From Paenibacillus sp. E222 (GTDB lineage Bacteria; Bacillota; Bacilli; Paenibacillales; Paenibacillaceae), in contig NZ_CP058552.1 in the NCBI RefSeq assembly GCF_013401555.1, positions 2,666,001-2,730,000 on the forward strand: a stretch of 64,000 nucleotides of DNA. The letters are read 5' to 3'. Below the pieces are notes generated by a model, which saw only the letters and a program-made list of their open reading frames with translations, was not told the origin of the DNA and made no database searches. Below, one piece after another: positions 4,468 through 23,188 of this stretch. A program made the position numbers and the translations under genes. How positions within the stretch are numbered: the stretch's first letter is position 1; every line of letters begins with the position of its first letter.

Positions 4468-6687
4468 ATCATTCGTTATTTTCATGAGAACGAGGCGATT
4501 GCAGGCAAGGTGTATGATTCAATTCCGGATATGTTGACTACCGTGGCACAGCGTTATATTGGGGACCATCCGAAACACTCCTTTTTGTTCCGAGCGTACC
4601 ACCGTGGAGGCTTCCGTAGACTGGGGGATTATCGTTATGATCTGAATTTGGATGCCAAATGGAAAGAGGCTCGTGCAGGACAGTACGTGTACGTATGGGG
4701 CAAGTTGTGGAGCCAGCAGGAGGCTACGTTAAATACGGGACTGAACTGTTACAGTCCGGTGACGGTCTATGTGAACGGAGAAGAGATTTTCAAATCGGAG
4801 CTGTTGCAGGAGTTATTTCCCGAGCGCATAACCCAGATTCCGATTTCCGTGAAATATGGCTGGAACGATGTGCTGCTTTGTTTTGTAAAAACTGAGGTGG
4901 GATTCGGCGGGATCTACGGAACGGCCTCATTTAAAAACTTTCCGCTTCACTTCCTCACACCTGGTTTGGACCGCCAAGGACAGGAGGGCTGGCTGTACTC
5001 GGAACCAGTCGATGAACCTTTATCATCACTCCCTCGTGATGGCATGACTGAAGAAGAAACGGGCCTCTCCTGGTATCCGCGCAGGGACTGGACAGAAGGG
5101 GAACAGAACGCTGGAGCTTTCGCCAGAATCTTTGGGACAGAGCAGCCTGCTGTTGCGTACGCATGGTCCAAACTGGATGTCATCCAACCGGGATCGACAC
5201 CTGTTCTTCTGCAAGGAAAACATGAAGGTGCCCTCACCCTGTACGTTGATGGCAAGGAGATATATTCCGCTGGGCAAAGCGGTAATTTCCGCGTTGAACT
5301 GCCTCGCCGATACGGTGGTTCTGATCTGGTAGCGAAAGGTGAAACCAAGGCTGGGAGCGAGTTGTGGGGATTTACACTGGAAGATGCGAAGACCTCAGGG
5401 ACGAAAGGCTGGAGATTAAGACCACCTCATCCGGTTGCAGGATGCCACGATGCGTGGCTGTTTACGGGTGTATTTTCCCCAGGCTCTGAACCATCTCCCC
5501 AAGATATTGTGGTAACAGATACTGTATTTGATGATGGAACCCAAGGCGTATACTGGCATGTGGATCTTCCTGAAACGAGTGTCCGTCCCTATTTGGAAAA
5601 TACCCACTATGGCAAATGGAATTATCCACTCGGGGTCACCCTGCTTGGACTTCTTCAGATTGGCCAGGAGTTGGGACGTGACGACTATGTTCAGTATGTG
5701 CGTGACCATATCGGCCTGAGTACGTCGTTTGACCGTTATGGTCTATGGGATCGGGAAGGGTACGGCGCCGCGGGAATCAATAATCAGTTGTCTGCGATCG
5801 ACAGTCTGGATGACTGTGGTTCGTTTGGATCTACTTTGCTGGCAGCGATGGAACTCGGCGACATTCGTGGGGGGAGAGATACCGCAGATCGTATTGCGGG
5901 CTATATTACGGATGAACAGGAACGTCTGGACGACGGAGCCTTTTACCGTGTTCGTGGCAGCGGAGAGATGCGCCAGGAAACGATGTGGTGTGATGATCTG
6001 TATATGAGCACACCTTTCCTGATGCGGTACGGTCAGTTGACGGGAGATACTTCTTATTGGGATGATGCGATCAACCAGTTCCTCATGTTCCGCAAATATC
6101 TGTATATTCCTGAACAACAGATCATGTCCCACGTGTATGATTTTGTGCGTGGACGGGCGACAGGCATACCATGGGGGCGCGGGAACGGATGGGTTCTGTT
6201 TTCGCTAACCGAACTACTGTCGATTCTGCCAAGCGATCACGTCAAACGGCCGGAACTGCTGGGCTTCTACCGGGATCTATGTCAGGGGTATCTGGCGCTG
6301 CAAGGTGAAAATGGTCTCTGGCATCAGGTGCTGAACCGCCCGGATTCGTATGAGGAAACCTCCTGCACGTCCATGTTCATCTACGCCTATGCCCGCGGTA
6401 TTCGTGAAGGCTGGCTGGAGCAGCCAGCGGCCTACTTGGATGCGGTACGCAAAGGATGGGAGGGTATGACCCATCTGTCCATTGATTACAAAGGCAATGT
6501 GTACGGTGTATGCCGGGGTTCCGGTTACTCCTTTACCGCACTTTATTACCGGGATGATCTGGGATGGATTCTGAACGATACGCACGGTATTGGCATTGTG
6601 CTTCTGGCCGGGATTGAGGTGCATAAAATGAACCAGCAGCTGAGCCGGATTTCGTTCGACTCTTCGGTTACAGCTGCACAACGCTAG
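4468..6687 (+). CDS. GH88/GH105 unsaturated rhamnogalacturonyl hydrolase with N-terminal beta-domain
   Basis: About 739 aa. The C-terminal half (from about residue 365) is an alpha/alpha-barrel GH105 domain: DDCGSFGSTLL, MWCDDLYMSTPFL and GIPWGRGNGWVL are the family's catalytic and binding motifs. These enzymes hydrate and release the 4,5-unsaturated galacturonyl residue left by lyases. The N-terminal ~330 aa carry beta-sandwich-like segments and have no signal peptide, so the protein is probably cytoplasmic. The start is unusual. The strong site GGAAGGGAG (4453-4461) is followed in frame by ATC (4468) and ATT (4471), with CTG at 4462, but no ATG, GTG or TTG. The first conventional start, GTG 4510, has no spaced binding site and would remove 14 aa that read like genuine N-terminus (IIRYFHENEAIAGK). 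The same reading frame is open throughout. Confidence 0.8.
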   Translation: MIRYFHENEAIAGKVYDSIPDMLTTVAQRYIGDHPKHSFLFRAYHRGGFRRLGDYRYDLNLDAKWKEARAGQYVYVWGKLWSQQEATLNTGLNCYSPVTVYVNGEEIFKSELLQELFPERITQIPISVKYGWNDVLLCFVKTEVGFGGIYGTASFKNFPLHFLTPGLDRQGQEGWLYSEPVDEPLSSLPRDGMTEEETGLSWYPRRDWTEGEQNAGAFARIFGTEQPAVAYAWSKLDVIQPGSTPVLLQGKHEGALTLYVDGKEIYSAGQSGNFRVELPRRYGGSDLVAKGETKAGSELWGFTLEDAKTSGTKGWRLRPPHPVAGCHDAWLFTGVFSPGSEPSPQDIVVTDTVFDDGTQGVYWHVDLPETSVRPYLENTHYGKWNYPLGVTLLGLLQIGQELGRDDYVQYVRDHIGLSTSFDRYGLWDREGYGAAGINNQLSAIDSLDDCGSFGSTLLAAMELGDIRGGRDTADRIAGYITDEQERLDDGAFYRVRGSGEMRQETMWCDDLYMSTPFLMRYGQLTGDTSYWDDAINQFLMFRKYLYIPEQQIMSHVYDFVRGRATGIPWGRGNGWVLFSLTELLSILPSDHVKRPELLGFYRDLCQGYLALQGENGLWHQVLNRPDSYEETSCTSMFIYAYARGIREGWLEQPAAYLDAVRKGWEGMTHLSIDYKGNVYGVCRGSGYSFTALYYRDDLGWILNDTHGIGIVLLAGIEVHKMNQQLSRISFDSSVTAAQR

Positions 6688-14950: not shown

Positions 14951-15574
14951 ATGAGTCTGGATAGCCCAATTATCATTGTCGCAACCCGTAATGCAGGAAA
15001 AGTACGTGAATTCGCTCATGCATTCGCTCCGCTGGGCAAAGAGGTCAAAAGCATGTTCGACTATCCGGAGCTGCCGGATGTCGTTGAGGATGGCGTAACC
15101 TTTGCGGAGAATGCCTGGAAGAAAGCCAAAACAGTGGGCGATGCTCTGGGTCTGCCTGTTCTGGCTGACGATTCGGGATTGTGTGTGGATCTGTTGGACG
15201 GTGACCCGGGAGTGTACTCTGCGAGATATGCAGGCGAAGGTGCTACCGATGCGAAGAACAATGCCAAACTGCTTGAGGCGCTGGAATCACTCAAATCCGG
15301 TGAGGATACGGAGCAACCGCTTCTGAGTCCAGCAAGTTTCGTCTGTGCACTGGTGCTGTATGACCCGGCAACCGGAGACAAGTATGAATCAGAGGGCACG
15401 GTGGAAGGCTGGATCACAGCTAAAGCTGCCGGTGGTGGCGGTTTTGGATATGACCCACTCTTCTACGTGCCTGAATACGAGATGACAATGGCCGAGCTTA
15501 CGCTGGAGCAAAAGCAGGCAATCAGTCACCGGGGGCATGCCCTGAGAGCGCTCGTATCCAGTCTGAAAGGCTGA
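14951..15574 (+). CDS. rdgB: XTP/dITP diphosphatase (non-canonical purine NTP pyrophosphatase)
   Basis: 207 aa. The enzyme clears dITP, ITP and XTP to monophosphates. Motifs: IIVATRNAGKVREF at the N-terminus, LPVLADDSGLCVDLLDG with catalytic Asp, GVYSARYAGEGATD, GGGFGYDPLFYVP and SHRGHALRAL at the end. B. subtilis counterpart is YsnA, also directly after rph. One base separates it from rph. Confidence 0.95.
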   Translation: MSLDSPIIIVATRNAGKVREFAHAFAPLGKEVKSMFDYPELPDVVEDGVTFAENAWKKAKTVGDALGLPVLADDSGLCVDLLDGDPGVYSARYAGEGATDAKNNAKLLEALESLKSGEDTEQPLLSPASFVCALVLYDPATGDKYESEGTVEGWITAKAAGGGGFGYDPLFYVPEYEMTMAELTLEQKQAISHRGHALRALVSSLKG

Positions 15575-15640
15575 GATTCAAACTTGGCTTATGCGAATAT
15601 GAATGTTATAAGGTGAATTATGGCCTTGCTTAAATATCAA

Positions 15641-15702
15641 AGCGTTAATGGAAGGTAAGTGTCATTCCTGTGGAATGGCCCACCAACCATTAGCGTTTTT
15701 TT
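15641..15702 (+). terminator. Terminator after gerM-rph-rdgB
   Basis: AGCGTTAATGG pairs with CCATTAGCG (one G-T pair), with an inner hairpin CATTCC/GGAATG, followed by seven T. Confidence 0.65.
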
Positions 15703-15778
15703 ATTTTTGCATGACTAAGCAATCTTAATGAAGCCAGTACGTGAGACCTATAATAAAATCCGTTTCTATAGGGGGAAC

Positions 15779-15903
15779 TATAGGAACGTACGTTCTTGTA
15801 CCTATAAAGAAAATACAGGGATTTCACGTTTGAGCAGCACATTAGGACTGGGGTTGGAAGAAGTTGCAAGTCTTGTACCGTATGGGTTAACATTCAAGTT
15901 AAC
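15779..15903. promoter_or_regulatory. Dyads upstream of the STM4015-4011 operon (possible operator)
   Basis: The perfect 12-bp palindrome GAACGTACGTTC (15784-15795) lies between the outer arms TATAGG (15779-15784) and CCTATA (15801-15806). Two GTTAAC hexamers, each self-complementary, lie 12 bp apart at 15886-15891 and 15898-15903, about 40 bp before the first gene. A TATAAT at 15749-15754 could be a -10 box, but its -35 is poor. The rest of the 365-bp gap holds only the terminator above. Confidence 0.35.
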
Positions 15904-15939
15904 GAATCATCAATGAACTCAAACGGAGGGGATTTGCTT

Positions 15940-16782
15940 ATGCAAGAAGTGAAGCTTACGGTGTCTTATGATGATTATGAGGACGGTATTCGCATGGAAA
16001 CACTGATCAGGGAATTGGCTGCCAAACCGGAGGCGGGTTCGCTGGAGAGCCTGATTATTGGAGACTGGGGACAGGCCTATGAAAATTCGCCGGAAGAATT
16101 TATGGGCACACTCATCGAGCTGGCTCCAAGCTTTCCATCTTTGAAGAAACTGTTCATCGGAGATATGGGCTTTGAAGAATGCGAGGTTTCATGGATTATT
16201 CAGACGGATCTCACACCCCTATTGGTTGCTTTCCCTGAATTGAAGTCATTCACAGTGAAGGGCAGCAGCGGACTAAGTCTGGAACCCATCGAACATGCCA
16301 AGCTTGAAGAATTAATCATTATTTGCGGTGGCCTTCCCAAAAGCGTGTTAGCTTCAATTGCCCGGGCAAAGTTGCCTGAATTGCGTAAGCTTGAGCTGTA
16401 TCTGGGCGTGGATGATTATGGATTCGACGGCTCACTGCAAGATGTACTTCCACTTTTGGAACAGGGCTTATTTCCAAAGCTTGTATACCTGGGTCTGAAA
16501 GACAGTGAAATTCAGGATGAGATTGCAAAGGCTGCAGCTGAGGCACCAATTCTGGATCAACTTGAAATCCTGGATCTGTCAGAGGGCACGCTGTCTGATG
16601 AAGGGGCGGAGGCGCTGCTTGCCAGCAACAAGATCAAAAAACTGAAACATCTCAATCTTAGTTACCACTACATGACGGACGAAATGCTTATTCGCTGGAA
16701 ACGTTCCGGTATATCTGTGGATGTTAGTGAGCAACAACAGAGTGATGAAGATGACTGGCGTTATCCGTCGTTAACGGAATAA
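15940..16782 (+). CDS. STM4015 family leucine-rich repeat protein
   Basis: 280 aa. Successive leucine-rich repeats run from about residue 45 to 250 (SLESLIIGDWG, SLKKLFIGDMG, ELKSFTVKGSSG, KLEELIIICGG, KLVYLGLKDSEI, QLEILDLSEGTL, KLKHLNLSYHYM). The acidic C-terminus ends in WRYPSLTE, typical of this family as I remember it. No signal peptide, so it is cytoplasmic, and a scaffold or substrate-binding role is a guess. ATG 15940 is taken because GGAGGGG lies 8 nt upstream; ATG 15913 has no site. First gene of a five-gene operon; the next gene starts at the base after its stop. Confidence 0.8.
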   Translation: MQEVKLTVSYDDYEDGIRMETLIRELAAKPEAGSLESLIIGDWGQAYENSPEEFMGTLIELAPSFPSLKKLFIGDMGFEECEVSWIIQTDLTPLLVAFPELKSFTVKGSSGLSLEPIEHAKLEELIIICGGLPKSVLASIARAKLPELRKLELYLGVDDYGFDGSLQDVLPLLEQGLFPKLVYLGLKDSEIQDEIAKAAAEAPILDQLEILDLSEGTLSDEGAEALLASNKIKKLKHLNLSYHYMTDEMLIRWKRSGISVDVSEQQQSDEDDWRYPSLTE

Positions 16783-18144
16783 ATGATATCAGGCATGACG
16801 GAAATGGAAGGAAATTTGCAAAGCCCAGTTAAGGATTCGGATATGACGCTGGAGCAGCCCTTATTGTTAATTGGAAACCCGAATAATCGCCGTACCCTTG
16901 GACTACAGGAGGCAAGACAGCGCCTTGGTTTACAGCCTGCACTTGTGCTGCCCTATATCCGTTTGCTACAGACCTGGAGAAGGGGTGGAACTATTGCGGA
17001 TGCCGTACAGCAATGTCTGGAAGGGCGAGTGGCTACACACACGCACGGAGCGTCGTGGATATCTTCACCAGCGTCGATCTCATATGCCAATCATGATCCA
17101 GTTGACGGAGTGAATAGTATACCTCTTATTCGACTGGATGCCCCTGGTGAGGAATGGGAAGTAGAGTGTGAGCTGCTCTTTCTTGGAGCTGTGAATGATG
17201 TATCTCCGTTAATCGATGGCCCTTCTGCGGGAATGATTCCGGCAGCGCAGACACTCACTCTTGAACAGGAGTGGGGGCGGATCTACGCGCCCAACCAATG
17301 GTTTCGTGGCTGGAAGGCTTGTTTGGAACGAATTCGCTATGAAGCCTTGGAGTATTGGCCCAATGCCCGGTTTACGAATGATCCCAATGATATTGCGATC
17401 ATGTTTGATAAAAGGAGATGCCAGCAGCAACTAACTGCCCATGGCGTTCACGTTCCCCCAACGCTCCAGTCTTCGGAGCCGATCCGCAATTATGCGGACC
17501 TGCGTACAGCGATGAAAACAGCCGGTATGAATCGGGTTTTCGTGAAACTTGCGTGTGGCTCCGGGGCTTCAGGCGTTGTTGCCTATCAAATTAATCCGCG
17601 AACGGGTGCTGAAATCGCTATAACCACTGTGGGAATGGAGCGGATTCAGGGAAATCTCATTTTTTATAATGAAGGTCGGATGCGCAGGTACACACGTACT
17701 TCGGAAATTTCGGTGCTCATGGATTGGTTGTGCGCTGAAGGTGCCCAGATTGAACGTTGGATGGCAAAAGCATCCCTTGGTTCAAGCGTGTTTGATATTC
17801 GCCAGCTTGTGGCAGGTGGACAAGCAGGTCATGCCATCGTACGGGTTAGTCAGACACCGATCACCAATCTGCATTTGCGCAATGAGCGGTTGCTGCCCGC
17901 AGAAGCGGGGCTGGATGAACAGCAGATGGATGGGGTTCAGACGTCAGCGAAAGCAGCAATGGCTGCCTTTCCCAACTCATGGTCTGCCGGGATTGATGTG
18001 ATGCTCAGTGGTGGAACTGAACCGCGTGCTTATATTCTGGATGTGAATCCGTTCGGAGATTTGTTGTACAGAGTACAGCATAACGGACTTGGAACCTATG
18101 AATGGCAAATGGAACTTTTGCGAAAGGAGCCCTTACAACCATGA
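16783..18144 (+). CDS. STM4014 family ATP-grasp protein
   Basis: 453 aa. Central and C-terminal parts look like an ATP-grasp ligase: RVFVKLACGSGASGVVAYQI near residues 248-267 (ATP-binding strand and Gly-rich loop), IERWMAKASL, FDIRQLVAG, and YILDVNPFGDLLY near 415-427, with the metal-binding D and N of the family. ATP-grasp enzymes join a carboxylate to an amine or thiol through an acyl phosphate; the substrates here are unknown. The ATG touches the previous stop, which suggests coupling, but ATG 16843 with AAGGA 7 nt upstream is an equally good start. Its last four bases overlap the next gene. Confidence 0.8.
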   Translation: MISGMTEMEGNLQSPVKDSDMTLEQPLLLIGNPNNRRTLGLQEARQRLGLQPALVLPYIRLLQTWRRGGTIADAVQQCLEGRVATHTHGASWISSPASISYANHDPVDGVNSIPLIRLDAPGEEWEVECELLFLGAVNDVSPLIDGPSAGMIPAAQTLTLEQEWGRIYAPNQWFRGWKACLERIRYEALEYWPNARFTNDPNDIAIMFDKRRCQQQLTAHGVHVPPTLQSSEPIRNYADLRTAMKTAGMNRVFVKLACGSGASGVVAYQINPRTGAEIAITTVGMERIQGNLIFYNEGRMRRYTRTSEISVLMDWLCAEGAQIERWMAKASLGSSVFDIRQLVAGGQAGHAIVRVSQTPITNLHLRNERLLPAEAGLDEQQMDGVQTSAKAAMAAFPNSWSAGIDVMLSGGTEPRAYILDVNPFGDLLYRVQHNGLGTYEWQMELLRKEPLQP

Positions 18145-18926
18145 CTGATATGAACACCATAGTAGGCTCCCATGATCTATTAATGATTACGCTGGACACG
18201 TTAAGGTATGACGTGGCCAAGCTGGAGGAACAGAATTGCCCCAACCTGTGCGGTACGGGTCCTTGGGAGAAGCGTCATACTCCGGGAAGTTTTACCTATG
18301 CGGCACATCATGCTTTTTTTGGTGGCTTCATGCCTACACCTGCCAATACGGACAAAGCCTCCCACGTACGACTTTTTCATTCCCGGAATACCGGATTAAA
18401 GACACATCCGCATACCTGGCTGTTCGACACTCCGGATATCGTATCCGGGTTAGCAGCGGAAGGATACCGTACGATTTGTATTGGCGGGGTCATTTTCTTC
18501 ACCAAGAAAAATCCACTCGCCAAAGTGCTGCCGGGTTATTTTCAGCAAAGCTACTGGCGGATGAATTTTGGCGTAACCAACCCCAAATCGACCGAGCATC
18601 AGGTTCAGCATGCCTTGAAGCTGCTGGAGCAAATCACACCGGATGAAAAGCTGTTTTTGTTCCTGAATGTGTCTGCCATCCATGGGCCCAATCGCTATTT
18701 TGTGGAGGGTGCAAGAGAAGACTCCGTAGAAACACAGCGAGCAGCCCTTCGGTATGTGGACCAGGCTCTTGGGCCATTGTTTGATGCAATGAGGCAGCGT
18801 TCACGGCCTACGTTTTGTTTAGCTTTTTCCGATCATGGCACGGCGTATGGTGAGGATGGTTATCAGGGGCACAGGCTGGCGCATGATGTTGTCTGGAATG
18901 TGCCTTACCGTGAATTTATTTTATAG
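18141..18926 (+). CDS. STM4013/SEN3800 family hydrolase (sulfatase/alkaline phosphatase-like)
   Basis: 261 aa. It has the metal-site layout of the alkaline phosphatase superfamily: LLMITLDTLRYDVA at the N-terminus (Asp ligand, candidate Thr nucleophile), NVSAIHGPNRYF, and a C-terminal AFSDHGTAYGEDGYQGHR with the Asp-His and His ligands. It is much shorter than true sulfatases and has no signal peptide, so it is a cytoplasmic phospho- or sulfo-hydrolase or transferase of unknown substrate. The start ATG overlaps the ATP-grasp stop (ATGA, 18141-18144) with AAAGGAG upstream. A longer in-frame start at 18102 lies inside the previous gene and is not needed. Confidence 0.8.
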   Translation: MTDMNTIVGSHDLLMITLDTLRYDVAKLEEQNCPNLCGTGPWEKRHTPGSFTYAAHHAFFGGFMPTPANTDKASHVRLFHSRNTGLKTHPHTWLFDTPDIVSGLAAEGYRTICIGGVIFFTKKNPLAKVLPGYFQQSYWRMNFGVTNPKSTEHQVQHALKLLEQITPDEKLFLFLNVSAIHGPNRYFVEGAREDSVETQRAALRYVDQALGPLFDAMRQRSRPTFCLAFSDHGTAYGEDGYQGHRLAHDVVWNVPYREFIL

Positions 18927-18979
18927 AACAATTGATTCATATCATCAACAACTACAAACCGGATACAGGGAGGAAACCG

Positions 18980-20377
18980 ATGGACGATCAATCTCAACAT
19001 ACGACAGTAGGTCATTCCGCAGAGTCCGGACCCAATACAACTACTGGTCTCAGAGAAGTGCTTACTTCCCCCTATCGCTCTTATTTATATTCGTATCCCC
19101 ACAAGACCGCATATCGGGAGTTGAACCCGCCATTACCACTCGGTCCATTGTGGGAACGTGAGAATACAGAAACGTATTTTTTATACATGCACATTCCGTT
19201 TTGTGCCGCTCGTTGCGGATTCTGTAACCTGTTTACGTTGCCGGATCGTCGTGATGACACCCATGTGCGTTATGTGGATGCGCTGGAACGGCAAGCCAAG
19301 CAGTGGGCACCGCTCACATCACGCAGACCCTATTCGAGGTTTGCCATCGGTGGTGGGACCCCCACATTATTAAATGAAATTCAGTTGAACCGCTTGTTCG
19401 ATATCGCGGAACAGGTGATGGGGCTCGATCCGACGCAAGCTTCGATCTCGGTAGAAACGTCACCGGATACTGTGACAGAAGCCAAATTGGCCATCATGAA
19501 AGAACGGAGCGTGGACCGGGTAAGCATGGGCATCCAAAGTTTTATCGAAGCCGAAGCCTCAGCCATCTACCGTCCGCAGAAACCACAGGAAGTGGAACGA
19601 GCGCTTGAGAAGCTTACACAGTATGAATTCCCTTTGTTGAATCTGGATCTGATCTATGGTCTGCCGGGACAAACGGTGGAATCATGGCTGTATTCGCTGG
19701 AACGTGTCCTTTCATATGAACCGGGTGAGATATTCATTTACCCATTGTACACTCGCGAGAATACCATTGTGAAACCCGGTGATATTCAGCGTCAGGGACC
19801 GGATATTCGGATGGAGCTGTATAAGGCTGCGCGTGAAACTTTGAAAAGCCGGGGTTATGTCCAGTATTCCATGCGCAGATTTGCCAAAGAACAATCTTCT
19901 TCGGGAAGCAAAGAGCTTCTACCCTACAGCTGTCAGGAAGAAGGCATGGTTGGTCTGGGTTGCGGTGCACGCTCTTATACCCGTGAAGTACACTATGCTT
20001 CCAAGTATGGTGTTAGTTATAAGGCCACACAGAGCATCATCGCCGATTATGTGGCAACCGAGCGTTATGATGTGGCCGATTACGGCATTGTACTCAGCCG
20101 GGAGGAGCAGAAGCGCCGCTTTATTCTGAAAGCCCTGCTGCATCGGGAAGGATTGGCGCTATCGGATTATGATGAGCGATTCGGAACGGGAGTCCTGTCA
20201 GACTACGGTTGGTTGAGTGAACTGTTGTCTGAGGGCATGGCTGAGCTGAAGCAGGACGATAAAGGAAACCAGGTGCTGCGTCTGACAGAAGAGGGATTGG
20301 GCTACTCGGATGCTATTGGAGATTGGCTCATCTCCGCTGAGGTTCGTGAACAAATGGAAGGGTTTGTGTTCTCATGA
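18980..20377 (+). CDS. STM4012 family radical SAM protein (HemN/HemW-like)
   Basis: 465 aa. The radical SAM cluster motif CAARCGFC (Cys 75, 79, 82) lies in YMHIPFCAARCGFCN, followed by AIGGGTPTLL, SVETSPDT, VSMGIQSF and LDLIYGLPGQT, all in HemN/HemW order. A GLGCGARSY segment and a winged-helix-like HemN C-terminal domain complete it. It is not the canonical hemW or hemN by context; the operon points to modification of an unknown substrate. AGGGAGG supports ATG 18980 over ATT/ATG options at 18932. It overlaps the next gene by ATGA. Confidence 0.85.
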   Translation: MDDQSQHTTVGHSAESGPNTTTGLREVLTSPYRSYLYSYPHKTAYRELNPPLPLGPLWERENTETYFLYMHIPFCAARCGFCNLFTLPDRRDDTHVRYVDALERQAKQWAPLTSRRPYSRFAIGGGTPTLLNEIQLNRLFDIAEQVMGLDPTQASISVETSPDTVTEAKLAIMKERSVDRVSMGIQSFIEAEASAIYRPQKPQEVERALEKLTQYEFPLLNLDLIYGLPGQTVESWLYSLERVLSYEPGEIFIYPLYTRENTIVKPGDIQRQGPDIRMELYKAARETLKSRGYVQYSMRRFAKEQSSSGSKELLPYSCQEEGMVGLGCGARSYTREVHYASKYGVSYKATQSIIADYVATERYDVADYGIVLSREEQKRRFILKALLHREGLALSDYDERFGTGVLSDYGWLSELLSEGMAELKQDDKGNQVLRLTEEGLGYSDAIGDWLISAEVREQMEGFVFS

Positions 20378-21237
20378 GAGCAACCTTGTATTATCGGGGG
20401 AAGCTGTCGTCCTGTAATTACGACTGTCCATATTGTCCGTTTAGCAAAACGGTAGATTCCAAGGAGACGCTCGAAGTGGATGAACTGCAACTGCGTCAAT
20501 TTGTGAATTGGGTGAGGGATCAGGAGAGTGCTGGACATCAATTTTCGATTTTCTTTAACCCGTATGGAGAAGCTCTGGTACGACGCTGGTATCGTGAAGC
20601 GATGATTGAGCTATCTCATATGCCACATGTGGACAAAATTGCAGTTCAAACCAACCTGTCTGTCAAACTGGACTGGGCCCGTGAATTAAATCGGGATAAA
20701 GCGGCATTCTGGGCGACCTATCACCCGCGTGAGACGAAGGAGTCTTCCTTCGTCAAACAATGTTTGACTTTACGAGAGATGGGGCTTGCTTTCAGTGTGG
20801 GGACGGTTGGATTGCGCAGTGCATTTCCTGCTATTGAATCGATGAGGCAGGCTTTACCTGATGACGTGTATATGTGGATCAATGCATTTAAAGATCGACC
20901 CCAATATTACAGTATGGAAGAGGTCGAATTTTTACGATCCGTTGATCCGCTGTTTGAAGGGAACCTGCGGGATTATGAGAGTCTGGGCAAGCGTTGTTCC
21001 GCTGGTTCGGAGGTATTTTATGTTCAAGGGTCAGGGCATGTAAAAAGGTGTTACAAGGATCGTCGAATTATTGGGCATCTCTACCGAGATGGTTTGCAGG
21101 CTTTGGCCGCAGATCGGCCTTGTGGCATGAAGAAGTGCGGCTGTTATATCGGTTATATTCATATGGAGGATTCTCCGTTCAGGGATATCTTTGGCCGTGG
21201 ATTGCTTGAACGTAATCCGGCACTGATCAATCAATAG
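20374..21237 (+). CDS. STM4011 family radical SAM protein
   Basis: 287 aa. Cluster motif CNYDCPYC (Cys 14, 18, 21) very near the N-terminus, then FFNPYGEALVRRWY, in place of the usual GGEP motif, and an activated-Cys-rich tail: KRCSAGS, VKRCYKD, RPCGMKKCGC. The clustered tail cysteines could bind an auxiliary iron-sulfur cluster, as in SPASM or twitch enzymes (inference). The start overlaps the STM4012 stop (ATGA at 20374-20377). It is the last gene of the operon, followed by a terminator. Confidence 0.85.
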   Translation: MRATLYYRGKLSSCNYDCPYCPFSKTVDSKETLEVDELQLRQFVNWVRDQESAGHQFSIFFNPYGEALVRRWYREAMIELSHMPHVDKIAVQTNLSVKLDWARELNRDKAAFWATYHPRETKESSFVKQCLTLREMGLAFSVGTVGLRSAFPAIESMRQALPDDVYMWINAFKDRPQYYSMEEVEFLRSVDPLFEGNLRDYESLGKRCSAGSEVFYVQGSGHVKRCYKDRRIIGHLYRDGLQALAADRPCGMKKCGCYIGYIHMEDSPFRDIFGRGLLERNPALINQ

Positions 21238-21257
21238 ATGTCGGTCATCCAACTGAC

Positions 21258-21299
21258 AGACTTTACACCAGAAAATGTGCTGGTGTAAGGTCTTTTTTT
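21258..21299 (+). terminator. Terminator of STM4015-4011 operon
   Basis: GACTTTACACCAG pairs with CTGGTGTAAGGTC (loop AAAATGTG) and is followed by seven T. Confidence 0.8.
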
Positions 21300-21354
21300 A
21301 TTTTGAACAAAAGATTCATGCTGCTGGCATATAGGTTAATAGGCTTAGGAGAAA

Positions 21355-21384
21355 TTGTCGTTTAGGGGCATTGGGAATCATAAT
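21355..21384 (+). promoter_or_regulatory. Possible promoter of the chemoreceptor gene
   Basis: TTGTCG, 18-bp spacer, CATAAT. A weak sigma-A match; no clear sigma-D motility box was found in this 253-bp gap. Confidence 0.35.
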
Positions 21385-21490
21385 TTCGGGAGAAAAAACG
21401 ACAAAAGTCCTAGTTTAATTTTAGAAGAATGGAGGGCACGGGAGTAAAACTACATAATTGCAAAACATCTGAACATATGGGGGAATTCAC

Positions 21491-23188
21491 ATGAAGAGAG
21501 TATCCATCAGTCGCAAATTACTGTTAGGTTTTGTAGCTGTATTGATTTTATTGGTGGCAGTTGTCGTCATCTCGTATACTCAATTTATCTCCGTAGAGAA
21601 AACATATACAGATCTCATCAAGGAACGTACGTATAAACTGCTTACGATTAAAAACATGATTATTGATGTGAAATCTCAGCAGGTTGCATTGCGAAACTAT
21701 GTGACCGAAGCCAGTGATGCTAATGAGCAGCTGTTTCAATCGTCTTATGAAGATTACCGTAAAATAAGTGAAGAATTAAGATCAGGTCTTAAAACACAAA
21801 CCATGATTGACCTTCTGGACCGTTCCGACCAGCGTGTGAAAGATTACTTAGCCTTTGGGCAGAATGTTATTGCATTAAAGAAACAGGATCGAAATAGTGA
21901 AATTACAACGTTGCTGCTCAACACAGGACCTGCAATCGTATCTGAATTTGAAGAAACCATGGCATCGATGGAGCAGGTTCAGCAAGATTTATTGGACACA
22001 GGGGTCGTGAATGCCAATCAGCTGATTCAAAAGGTAATCCGGTCAATTGTAATCATCGGTATTGTTTCGATCATTGTGGGAGCTGCCATTGCTTTACTTA
22101 TGGGTAGATTGATCTCTAAACCGGTGGCTTCTGTTGCTAGAGCAGCAAGACAAATAGCTGAAGGTGATTTGACTGGCGAGGCGATCATTGTACGAAATAA
22201 GGATGAAATTGGCGAGTTGGCCCAATCCTTTAATACGATGTCGGTTCATTTACGCGAGTTGATTCATCAGGTGGGTAATAACGCGGATCGGGTAGCCGCC
22301 TCATCTGAAGAGCTAACGGCTAGTACGGAACAGACTGTGGCGGCGACAGAACAAGTGGCCATTACAATGGAAGAGATTGCTACCGGTATGGATACACAAG
22401 TGAGCATGGTTAGCGATGGGTTCCATACGATTAATGAACTATCCACAGGTTTTCGGCAAATTACTGAGAATACGCAAACGATGTCTGATGAAGCTACGAA
22501 CGCATCGGCTAAAACCTTAGCTGGCAATGACTCGGTGCAATCGGCTGTGGAACAAATGAATTCCATCCATCAGACCGTACAGGGTCTTGCAACGGTTATT
22601 GAAGAGCTGGGTAACCACTCACAATCTATTGGTTCGATGGTGGAAACCATTTCCGAAATATCGGCGCAAACGAATCTGCTTTCGCTTAACGCAGCCATTG
22701 AAGCGGCAAGAGCTGGAGAACATGGACGCGGGTTTGAGGTGGTTGCTACCGAGGTGCGGAAGCTCTCGGAGCAATCGGCAAGGTCAGCAGAACAAATAGG
22801 CACATTGGTAGCCTCTATTCATAAAGGCATGAGTGATGCCGCCCAATCCATGGGAGAAGTGACTGCCGAGGTTCAGGCAGGGATCAGCCTTGTGCATAGA
22901 GCAGGAGACAGTTTTGAAGAAATTCGTGCAGCTGTCAGCAAGGTAGCAGGACAGACCCAGGAAGTATCCGCTTCTATTGAGCATATGGCGGCCGGGGTGG
23001 AACAGATCAACGTATCCATGAAAACAATCATGGATGTTACACAGAATGCAGCAGCAGGCACAGAAGAGGTCAGCGCGACGTCTGAGGAGCAATTGTCTGC
23101 TATGCAGGAGATATCTTCTGCTGCCAATGAACTTTCGTCCATGGCGGAAGAATTACAGCAGTCTCTGGGTCATTTTAAAGTGGGATGA
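21491..23188 (+). CDS. Methyl-accepting chemotaxis protein
   Basis: 565 aa. TM1 is residues ~9-29 ([18 protein letters not shown]). An extracellular helical domain of ~150 aa follows, of the four-helix-bundle type ([20 protein letters not shown]). TM2 is ~185-206 ([20 protein letters not shown]), HAMP ~207-260, and a long coiled-coil signalling domain runs to the end, with the highly conserved hairpin tip [20 protein letters not shown] and [12 protein letters not shown]. No C-terminal CheR-binding pentapeptide. The ligand is not predictable. GGGGGAA precedes the ATG. It stands alone between two terminators. Confidence 0.93.

Follow-up and report, generated by a model that had tools for sequence, protein, structure and literature searches.

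The window analyzed here, a 64,000-nucleotide stretch of the Paenibacillus sp. E222 genome (7.5 Mb, a single contig), carries five consecutive genes of the STM4015, STM4014, STM4013, STM4012, and STM4011 families, in that order (Table 1). They encode a leucine-rich-repeat (LRR) protein, an ATP-grasp protein, a hydrolase, and two radical S-adenosylmethionine (SAM) enzymes, and the last residue of the LRR protein is proposed below as the site at which a chemical group is attached. The original prediction, made by a model from the sequence alone, had placed five open reading frames at 15940-21237 on the + strand and assigned them to these families. The placement holds, and all 5 of 5 proteins score above the curated NCBIfam cut-offs: STM4015 with 357 bits (cut-off, 275), STM4014 with 398 (175), STM4013 with 404 (250), STM4012 with 589 (380), and STM4011 with 397 (200).

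The start codon of STM4015 has GGAGGGG upstream, and its TAA stop occupies 16780-16782. An ATG at 16783 lies immediately 3' of this stop and is a possible start for STM4014, so the stop/start contact at 16782/16783 described originally can stand; the true start, however, may be the ATG at 16843, since the family match begins only at residue 28 and residues 1 to 16 are modelled with a predicted local distance difference test (pLDDT) score of <50. The ATGA overlaps at 18141 (STM4014/STM4013) and 20374 (STM4012/STM4011) are present as predicted, and 53 nt separate the stop of STM4013 from the probable ATG start of STM4012, which has GGGAGG upstream. Also as predicted, a terminator-like hairpin follows the operon. 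Its 14-pair stem is the longest among 6 terminator-like sites in 15000-22000, a number at chance level (6.0 expected). A promoter-like site was looked for on the + strand upstream of the operon and none was found. Hydropathy gave no sign of a membrane segment in the five proteins (maximum 19-residue mean, 1.53; no signal-peptide program was run), and by family assignment the five genes include no peptidase and no exporter.

Table 1. The operon and its features in the window
Feature	Position	Strand	Basis
STM4015 family LRR protein, 280 aa, isoelectric point (pI) 4.4; proposed carrier/acceptor	15940..16782	+	NF038076, LRR model, pI, solved homologue 2RA8
C-terminal tail of STM4015, WRYPSLTE, acidic stretch before, conserved last Glu; proposed attachment site	16756..16779	+	Homologue tails
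STM4014 family ATP-grasp protein, LysX/RimK-like; proposed ligase on the STM4015 C terminus	16783..18144 (start may be 16843)	+	NF038074
STM4013 family hydrolase, sulfatase/alkaline-phosphatase superfamily, Thr at the nucleophile position; proposed phosphoesterase or phosphotransferase	18141..18926	+	NF038075
STM4012 family radical SAM enzyme, HemN/HemW-like	18980..20377	+	NF006067, alignment
STM4011 family radical SAM enzyme, five-Cys auxiliary-cluster-like C terminus	20374..21237	+	NF038073, alignment, SkfB match
Rho-independent terminator-like hairpin, 14-pair stem, then T-run	21258..21293	+	

Distribution and gene order of the five-gene set

Counting matches over the curated cut-offs, all five families are present in 31 of 36 genomes of the same genus, and none is present in the same other 5. 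Genome G011, which belongs to the 31, has an STM4011 gene interrupted by stops (G011:C1:5635058-5635890), with the other four genes kept. Matches below the cut-offs to STM4012, STM4014, STM4013, and STM4011 occur also in genomes that lack the operon, and among 14 control genomes they were found in 14, 5, 3, and 2, respectively. The order 15-14-13-12-11 is kept in 85 of 91 loci (80 from Paenibacillaceae and 11 of 14 plasmid loci); this count leaves aside further plasmid matches (e.g., H3, H13, and H15) and the 3- to 4-kb loci of the genome searches. In four of the other six loci STM4015 is present twice, a fifth contains an additional STM4015 gene in reverse orientation, and the sixth, on a Bacteroides plasmid, is incomplete. 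The three plasmid loci left out (L115, L116, and L117) hold only a relative of STM4013, the other four genes being absent from these loci.

Outside the genus, the distribution of the five-gene set is patchy. Of 23 other genomes examined from the order, none has STM4013 over its cut-off; STM4011 was found in 8 of 398 genomes sampled from the phylum (6 of the 8 belonging to the window's own family), and STM4015 in 2 of 113 from the class to which genome G208 belongs. Named records of Bacillota, Pseudomonadota, Deinococcota, and Actinomycetota contain the complete set, and Bacteroidota an incomplete one. In genome G289 the five genes lie on three contigs, with STM4013-STM4012-STM4011 together and STM4014 and STM4015 each apart. 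Another gene stands upstream of STM4013 there, but a loss of STM4014 and STM4015 from G289 was ruled out, both being on other contigs. Because G289 keeps all five genes in scattered form, the link between them outlasts the loss of the operon. The five genes are one system, not a chance neighborhood; the coherent set that had been predicted, with two radical SAM enzymes, an ATP-grasp protein, and a protein of sulfatase/phosphatase fold, is borne out by its recurrence elsewhere.

A role as a defense system was considered and rejected: padloc gave a single match, of STM4012 to PDC-M51A (42.6 bits, residues 157-276, inside the radical SAM domain), and none for STM4015, STM4014, STM4013, or STM4011. 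The Bacteroides plasmid L118 retains only a short stretch of STM4013 (5935-6330), and STM4012 was not found in what is a decayed operon. Three adjacent weak STM4011-like matches lie in a distant genome of the phylum (G145:C19:8140-11552). A Salmonella record labelled as a plasmid (L111, NZ_CP019203.1) contains glnA-glnL-glnG, typA, the five STM genes, ompL, and yihS; genes of the type of glnA-glnL-glnG, typA, ompL, and yihS are usually chromosomal.

The C terminus of STM4015 and the kinship of STM4014

STM4015 is modelled as an LRR solenoid (pLDDT, 94.3) whose last ~16 residues form a coil (pLDDT, about 80-87), and its homologues have a median pI of 4.36 (n = 239). The last residue is Glu in 236 of these 239 homologues, which come from two protein database searches (the best 120 of 1586 and the best 120 of 1110, with one common to both; 8000 candidates were scored in the second search). 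The three exceptions are P0050 and P0119, which are short with unrelated ends, and P0133, which is one residue short and lies on a 1112-bp contig; all three were left out of the per-position tail counts (n = 236). When 97 sequences from the loci are added (336 in total), clustering at 90% identity gives 186 representatives, of which 185 end in Glu, and clustering at 60% gives 30, all with Glu last. Further, 95 of 95 STM4015 proteins from the loci end with Glu in one alignment column. The commonest last residue accounts for 28 of 90 STM4014, 59 of 90 STM4013, 26 of 90 STM4012, and 33 of 90 STM4011 proteins from the same loci. P0078 and P0079 were considered as two STM4015 copies of one genome, but their same identity (69%) and lengths of 279 and 280 residues suggest one gene with two start calls, and they were not counted as a pair.

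Across the 236 tails, the motif reads W/x-R-Y/F-x-x-hydrophobic-[TGSA]-E, with zero entropy at the last position only, and an acidic stretch precedes the terminal Glu (a mean of 7.4 D+E in the last 20 residues). The proteins end in MYTE in Salmonella, MITE in Bacteroides, AVSE in Methylobacterium, LLSE in G208 and G501, and GPMFTE in the unlinked copy of G289. Where STM4015 forms a tandem pair, both copies keep the terminal Glu, as does a lone reversed copy in Embleya. Of 97 genes, 71 encode this Glu by GAA and 26 by GAG, and each of the three stop codons is used. As the Glu codon and the stop codon both vary, the constraint is on the protein. The same variation rules out the terminal Glu as a by-product of the ribosome-binding site of STM4014, as do the annotated gaps to STM4014, which range from overlap to 58 nt, and the presence of Glu in reversed and unlinked STM4015 copies.

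A solved structure exists for one homologue, the uncharacterized structural-genomics entry PDB 2RA8 from B. fragilis, which shares 38% identity with the window protein (profile E value, 1e-80). In the 362-residue construct, the profile ends at residue 354, a Glu, followed by 8 residues that are presumably a purification tag. STM4015 of Bacteroides carries an N-terminal WGR domain (PF05406), and by eye the unlinked STM4015 of G289 has a WGR-like N terminus; the loci concerned are L118 (3876-4946) and L168 (1264-2370).

Comparison of the STM4014 profile with the PDB places LysX and RimK among the best matches, though these are weak. In a structural second look with the STM4014 model, the top eight matches are all RimK, ArgX, or LysX, and the three are tied as closest. 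The profile and fold of STM4014 are LysX/RimK-like, kinship with LysX/ArgX and RimK being found in sequence and fold alike. RimK, ArgX, and LysX are ligases acting on the C-terminal Glu of a protein. STM4014 proteins are frequently basic, with a median pI of 8.56 (n = 20). On the strength of the nearly invariant terminal Glu and of this kinship, STM4015 is rather likely to be a carrier or acceptor protein, to whose terminal Glu STM4014 would join an amine. That the LRR protein might carry the substrate had been suggested originally and is now the best-supported reading; the accompanying remark that the operon has no convincing precursor is not supported, as STM4015 with its conserved terminal Glu is a candidate.

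The hydrolase, the radical SAM enzymes, and accessory genes

In STM4013, residues D17, T50, D229, and H230 are invariant in 17 of 17 sequences (numbering of the first alignment row), as are F49 and H54 at the nucleophile motif. When STM4013 is aligned with the nucleotide pyrophosphatase/phosphodiesterase (NPP) 7n1s, FTYAAH matches LTFPNH and SDHG matches SDHG; the Thr of LTFPNH is the nucleophile in NPPs. Formylglycine sulfatases have the nucleophile motif Cys/Ser-x-Pro-x-Arg, which is not found in STM4013, where Thr occupies that position in 17 of 17. Since the invariant Thr aligns with the NPP Thr motif and Cys/Ser is lacking, STM4013 is probably a phosphoesterase rather than a sulfatase. 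Two results count against this assignment: the 20 PDB profile matches comprise 16 sulfatases, 3 NPPs, and 1 phosphonate monoester hydrolase, and the Pfam Sulfatase model is over its cut-off (43.7 versus 25 bits), as it is for the whole superfamily. The Pfam phosphodiesterase model PF01663 falls slightly under its own (21.2 versus 23 bits). The sulfatase/phosphatase fold predicted originally is thus retained at the level of the superfamily and narrowed toward the phosphoesterases.

Relatives of STM4013 also occur in other surroundings. On a linear plasmid of Streptomyces albidoflavus (L115, 6860-10309), one is accompanied by a radical SAM enzyme, a protein resembling thymidylate kinase, a 159-aa orphan, and a NUDIX hydrolase, a cluster that possibly serves a different, nucleotide-like pathway. 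On Ti plasmids (L117, 6001-7454), a distant relative with 26% identity adjoins a GTP cyclohydrolase II gene. These neighbors (kinase-like, NUDIX, and GTP cyclohydrolase II) point to phosphoesters.

The CX3CX2C motif of STM4012 is invariant in 19 of 19 sequences. The protein is HemN/HemW-like but under the cut-offs of both hemN_rel (156 bits; cut-off, 205) and hemN (145 bits; cut-off, 325). STM4011 has C14/C18/C21 (CX3CX2C) and five further cysteines, C208/C226/C250/C255/C257, all invariant in 21 of 21. The auxiliary cluster motif of SPASM/Twitch proteins is CX9-15GX4C, followed by further Cys. STM4011 shows C208-x12-G221-x4-C226 and then C250-x4-C255-x-C257 (21 of 21), the second half departing from the SPASM pattern. 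SkfB (6efn) is the only PDB match of STM4011 at an E value of up to 0.01, and the match is via the C terminus.

An adenosine 5'-phosphosulfate (APS)-kinase-family gene lies directly 3' of STM4011 in at least 13 of the 80 Paenibacillaceae loci (L063, L070, L077, L079, L082, L090, L091, L094, L103, L104, L105, L109, and L110), some loci ending shortly past STM4011, and PF01583 was confirmed in 4 of 4 such genes tested. It is a sixth, optional member of the operon. In Salmonella, STM4011 is followed by a separate haloacid dehalogenase (HAD) phosphatase gene (L111, 11910-12644); in Bacteroides (L118), Pfam places a HAD phosphatase at the C terminus of STM4011 itself, as a fusion. STM4011 carries an extra C-terminal domain at L118 (6355-7890), L159 (2348-3796), L160 (7579-9027), and L161 (123-1679), and alignment and lengths indicate a similar extension in G208, G289, and G501. 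Taken together, the kinase, the phosphatases, and the phosphoesterase hint at a phosphorylated intermediate.

In 7 of the 11 plasmid loci (L112, L113, L114, and L121-L124), the operon adjoins genes for a DUF6745 protein and a His-rich protein of ~100 aa. The small protein occurs in 8 plasmid records, of which 7 are these loci; the eighth is from Deinococcus ficus (L156), where the pair is present and no STM gene is annotated closer than 8 kb. It has GHSH and HEEH motifs in Deinococcus and no Pfam match. As it is present in only 7 of 11 plasmid loci and is not a universal part, it was rejected as a precursor peptide. DUF6745 had no match in the window's genome, and control genomes were likewise without a match, so that its absence is not proven.

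Proposed function, alternatives, and known systems

In the mechanism that we propose, the acidic LRR solenoid of STM4015, ending in a coil with a terminal Glu, would serve as a handle. STM4014 would activate a carboxylate of the last Glu as an acyl phosphate and couple an amine to it. In LysW carriers, the corresponding linkage is an isopeptide bond through the Glu side chain. The attached amine could be a building block worked on later, with STM4015 as a LysW-like carrier and release by an enzyme encoded outside the operon, or it could be a finished group kept on STM4015 as a bound cofactor; the latter is slightly favored by the lack of a peptidase and an exporter among the five genes. STM4012 and STM4011 would perform radical chemistry on the attached group or its precursor, and STM4013 would split or transfer a phosphoester of an intermediate. 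Some lineages would add the HAD phosphatase, the APS-kinase-like protein, or DUF6745 with the small His-rich protein. We infer the action of STM4014 on STM4015, and likewise the amine, the order of the steps, the product, and its release or retention.

Several observations weigh against this mechanism. No covalent adduct on STM4015 is known, and the operon genes include no releasing peptidase; LysW pathways release with LysK. STM4012 also ends in one alignment column (90 of 90) with a varying last residue, so a single-column end is not special by itself. The coil at the end of STM4015 is modelled with enough confidence that the tail may pack on the LRR and not be free. For STM4014, the LysX profile match amounts to 25.7 bits and is confined to two short stretches; in the same comparison, the score of RimK is slightly exceeded by that of an inositol-pyrophosphate kinase. 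Foldseek alone ranks an inositol-pyrophosphate kinase first and LysX fourth, mixed with Ddl, PsnB, and RimK. The window STM4014 is acidic (pI, 5.7), and the GSWGR motif, with which LysX reads EDWGE, is not found in STM4014, whose loop reads G-[SA]-x-A-x-G in 20 aligned rows. Similarly, the tails of STM4015 lack EDWGE, given as the LysW family motif in passages of PMC10433800, and the zinc cysteines of LysW have no counterpart, no Cys being among the invariant or nearly invariant columns of 45 aligned STM4015 sequences. Lastly, the tail could be a docking tag only.

Such a tag would fit a scaffold, in which STM4015 holds the enzymes, its tail and Glu form a docking motif, and STM4014 joins one small molecule to another, with nothing attached to STM4015. 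Protein binding is common among LRR proteins, the tail resembles a binding motif at positions -7, -6, and -3, and the ATP-grasp fold also suits small-molecule ligases. We nevertheless regard the scaffold as unlikely: the near-zero variation of the last residue, flush with the C terminus, is stricter than expected for docking, and the closest ATP-grasp relatives of STM4014 act on the terminal Glu of proteins. A little less likely again is a pathway of the type of ribosomally synthesized and posttranslationally modified peptides (RiPPs), with the last ~10 residues of STM4015 as a core peptide modified by the radical SAM enzymes (and by the ATP-grasp protein, as in graspetides) and the LRR as an oversized recognition domain. 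Glu is the only invariant reactive residue of the tail, T, G, S, A, and D all occur at position -2, the tail has no Cys, and Lys is rare; there is no peptidase or exporter among the five genes, and in place of a short precursor with a conserved modifiable core there is a 280-aa LRR protein. These points stand against the match of the STM4011 C terminus to the RiPP maturase SkfB, the presence of the graspetide ligase PsnB among the Foldseek neighbors of STM4014, and the strong conservation of R at -7 and Y/F at -6.

It is also conceivable that STM4014 works as RimK does, extending STM4015 by a regulatory tail made of Glu (a single residue or several) or of another amino acid, with the radical enzymes acting elsewhere. 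RimK matches the STM4014 profile and shares the place of closest structure with LysX and ArgX, but it would go unexplained why a phosphoesterase-like protein and two radical SAM enzymes accompany the pair, and we consider this quite improbable. We therefore return to STM4015 as a carrier or acceptor. One tentative extension, which we hold with slightly less than even confidence, is that STM4015 is the first member of a second class of C-terminal-Glu carriers, without structural relation to the known one. The carrier would be an LRR protein, in some cases bearing a WGR domain, and the LysX/RimK-like ligase, the phosphoesterase, and the two radical SAM enzymes would assemble an amino-linked metabolite on it, a group that may stay as a bound cofactor.

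The conserved terminal Glu makes the function of STM4011-STM4015 testable for a five-gene set that is complete in at least four phyla, includes two radical SAM enzymes, and was previously known by locus numbers only. If the proposal is correct, protein-tethered small-molecule synthesis arose on an LRR fold, to which we found no earlier link in the openly licensed literature; 2RA8 would show such a carrier for the first time, and the product would be traceable as a group on the STM4015 C terminus. As originally stated, the set is known by family name: the NCBIfam families STM4011-STM4015, to which all five window proteins belong, carry no function, and the openly licensed papers searched gave no account of the function of STM4011-STM4015, the combination of parts, SEN3798-3802, DUF6745, or 2RA8, with table entries only for STM4013 and STM4015.

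Among characterized systems, RimK is an ATP-grasp enzyme acting at the C-terminal Glu of ribosomal protein S6, and its likeness lies in its tied top structural match to STM4014; S6 is not an LRR protein, and RimK is not known to work with radical SAM enzymes. Graspetides (PsnB) and SPASM/Twitch RiPP maturases (SkfB) likewise apply an ATP-grasp or a radical SAM enzyme to a ribosomal peptide, and their structural or profile kinship to the STM proteins is weak. In contrast to graspetide precursors, the STM4015 tail has no Thr/Lys-rich core and is invariant only at the terminal Glu. Pearlins (PEARL, TglA/TmoA) likewise undergo amino acid chemistry, including a radical SAM step, at the carrier C terminus, as described in part of PMC9303977, but PEARL enzymes append an amino acid from aminoacyl-tRNA to short peptides, whereas the STM set has an ATP-grasp enzyme and an LRR protein. 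The same part of PMC9303977 sets amino-group carrier proteins (AmCPs) beside the pearlin carrier peptides, including the radical SAM step on a peptide-bound amino acid, and makes no mention of an LRR carrier.

The AmCP systems themselves (LysW/LysX/ArgX) combine an acidic carrier, an obligatory C-terminal Glu, a LysX-type ATP-grasp enzyme, and intermediates built on the protein, according to portions of PMC10433800 and PMC9303977. The likeness extends to an acidic STM4015 with a terminal Glu and a LysX-like STM4014. The fold of STM4015, an LRR solenoid of 280 aa, is not that of LysW, and in place of the AmCP partners LysZ/Y/J/K there are two radical SAM enzymes and a hydrolase of the sulfatase superfamily. 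Because EDWGE, the zinc cysteines, and GSWGR were all tested and are missing, the STM4011-STM4015 set is not a member of the AmCP family, but it would work like an amino-group carrier system.

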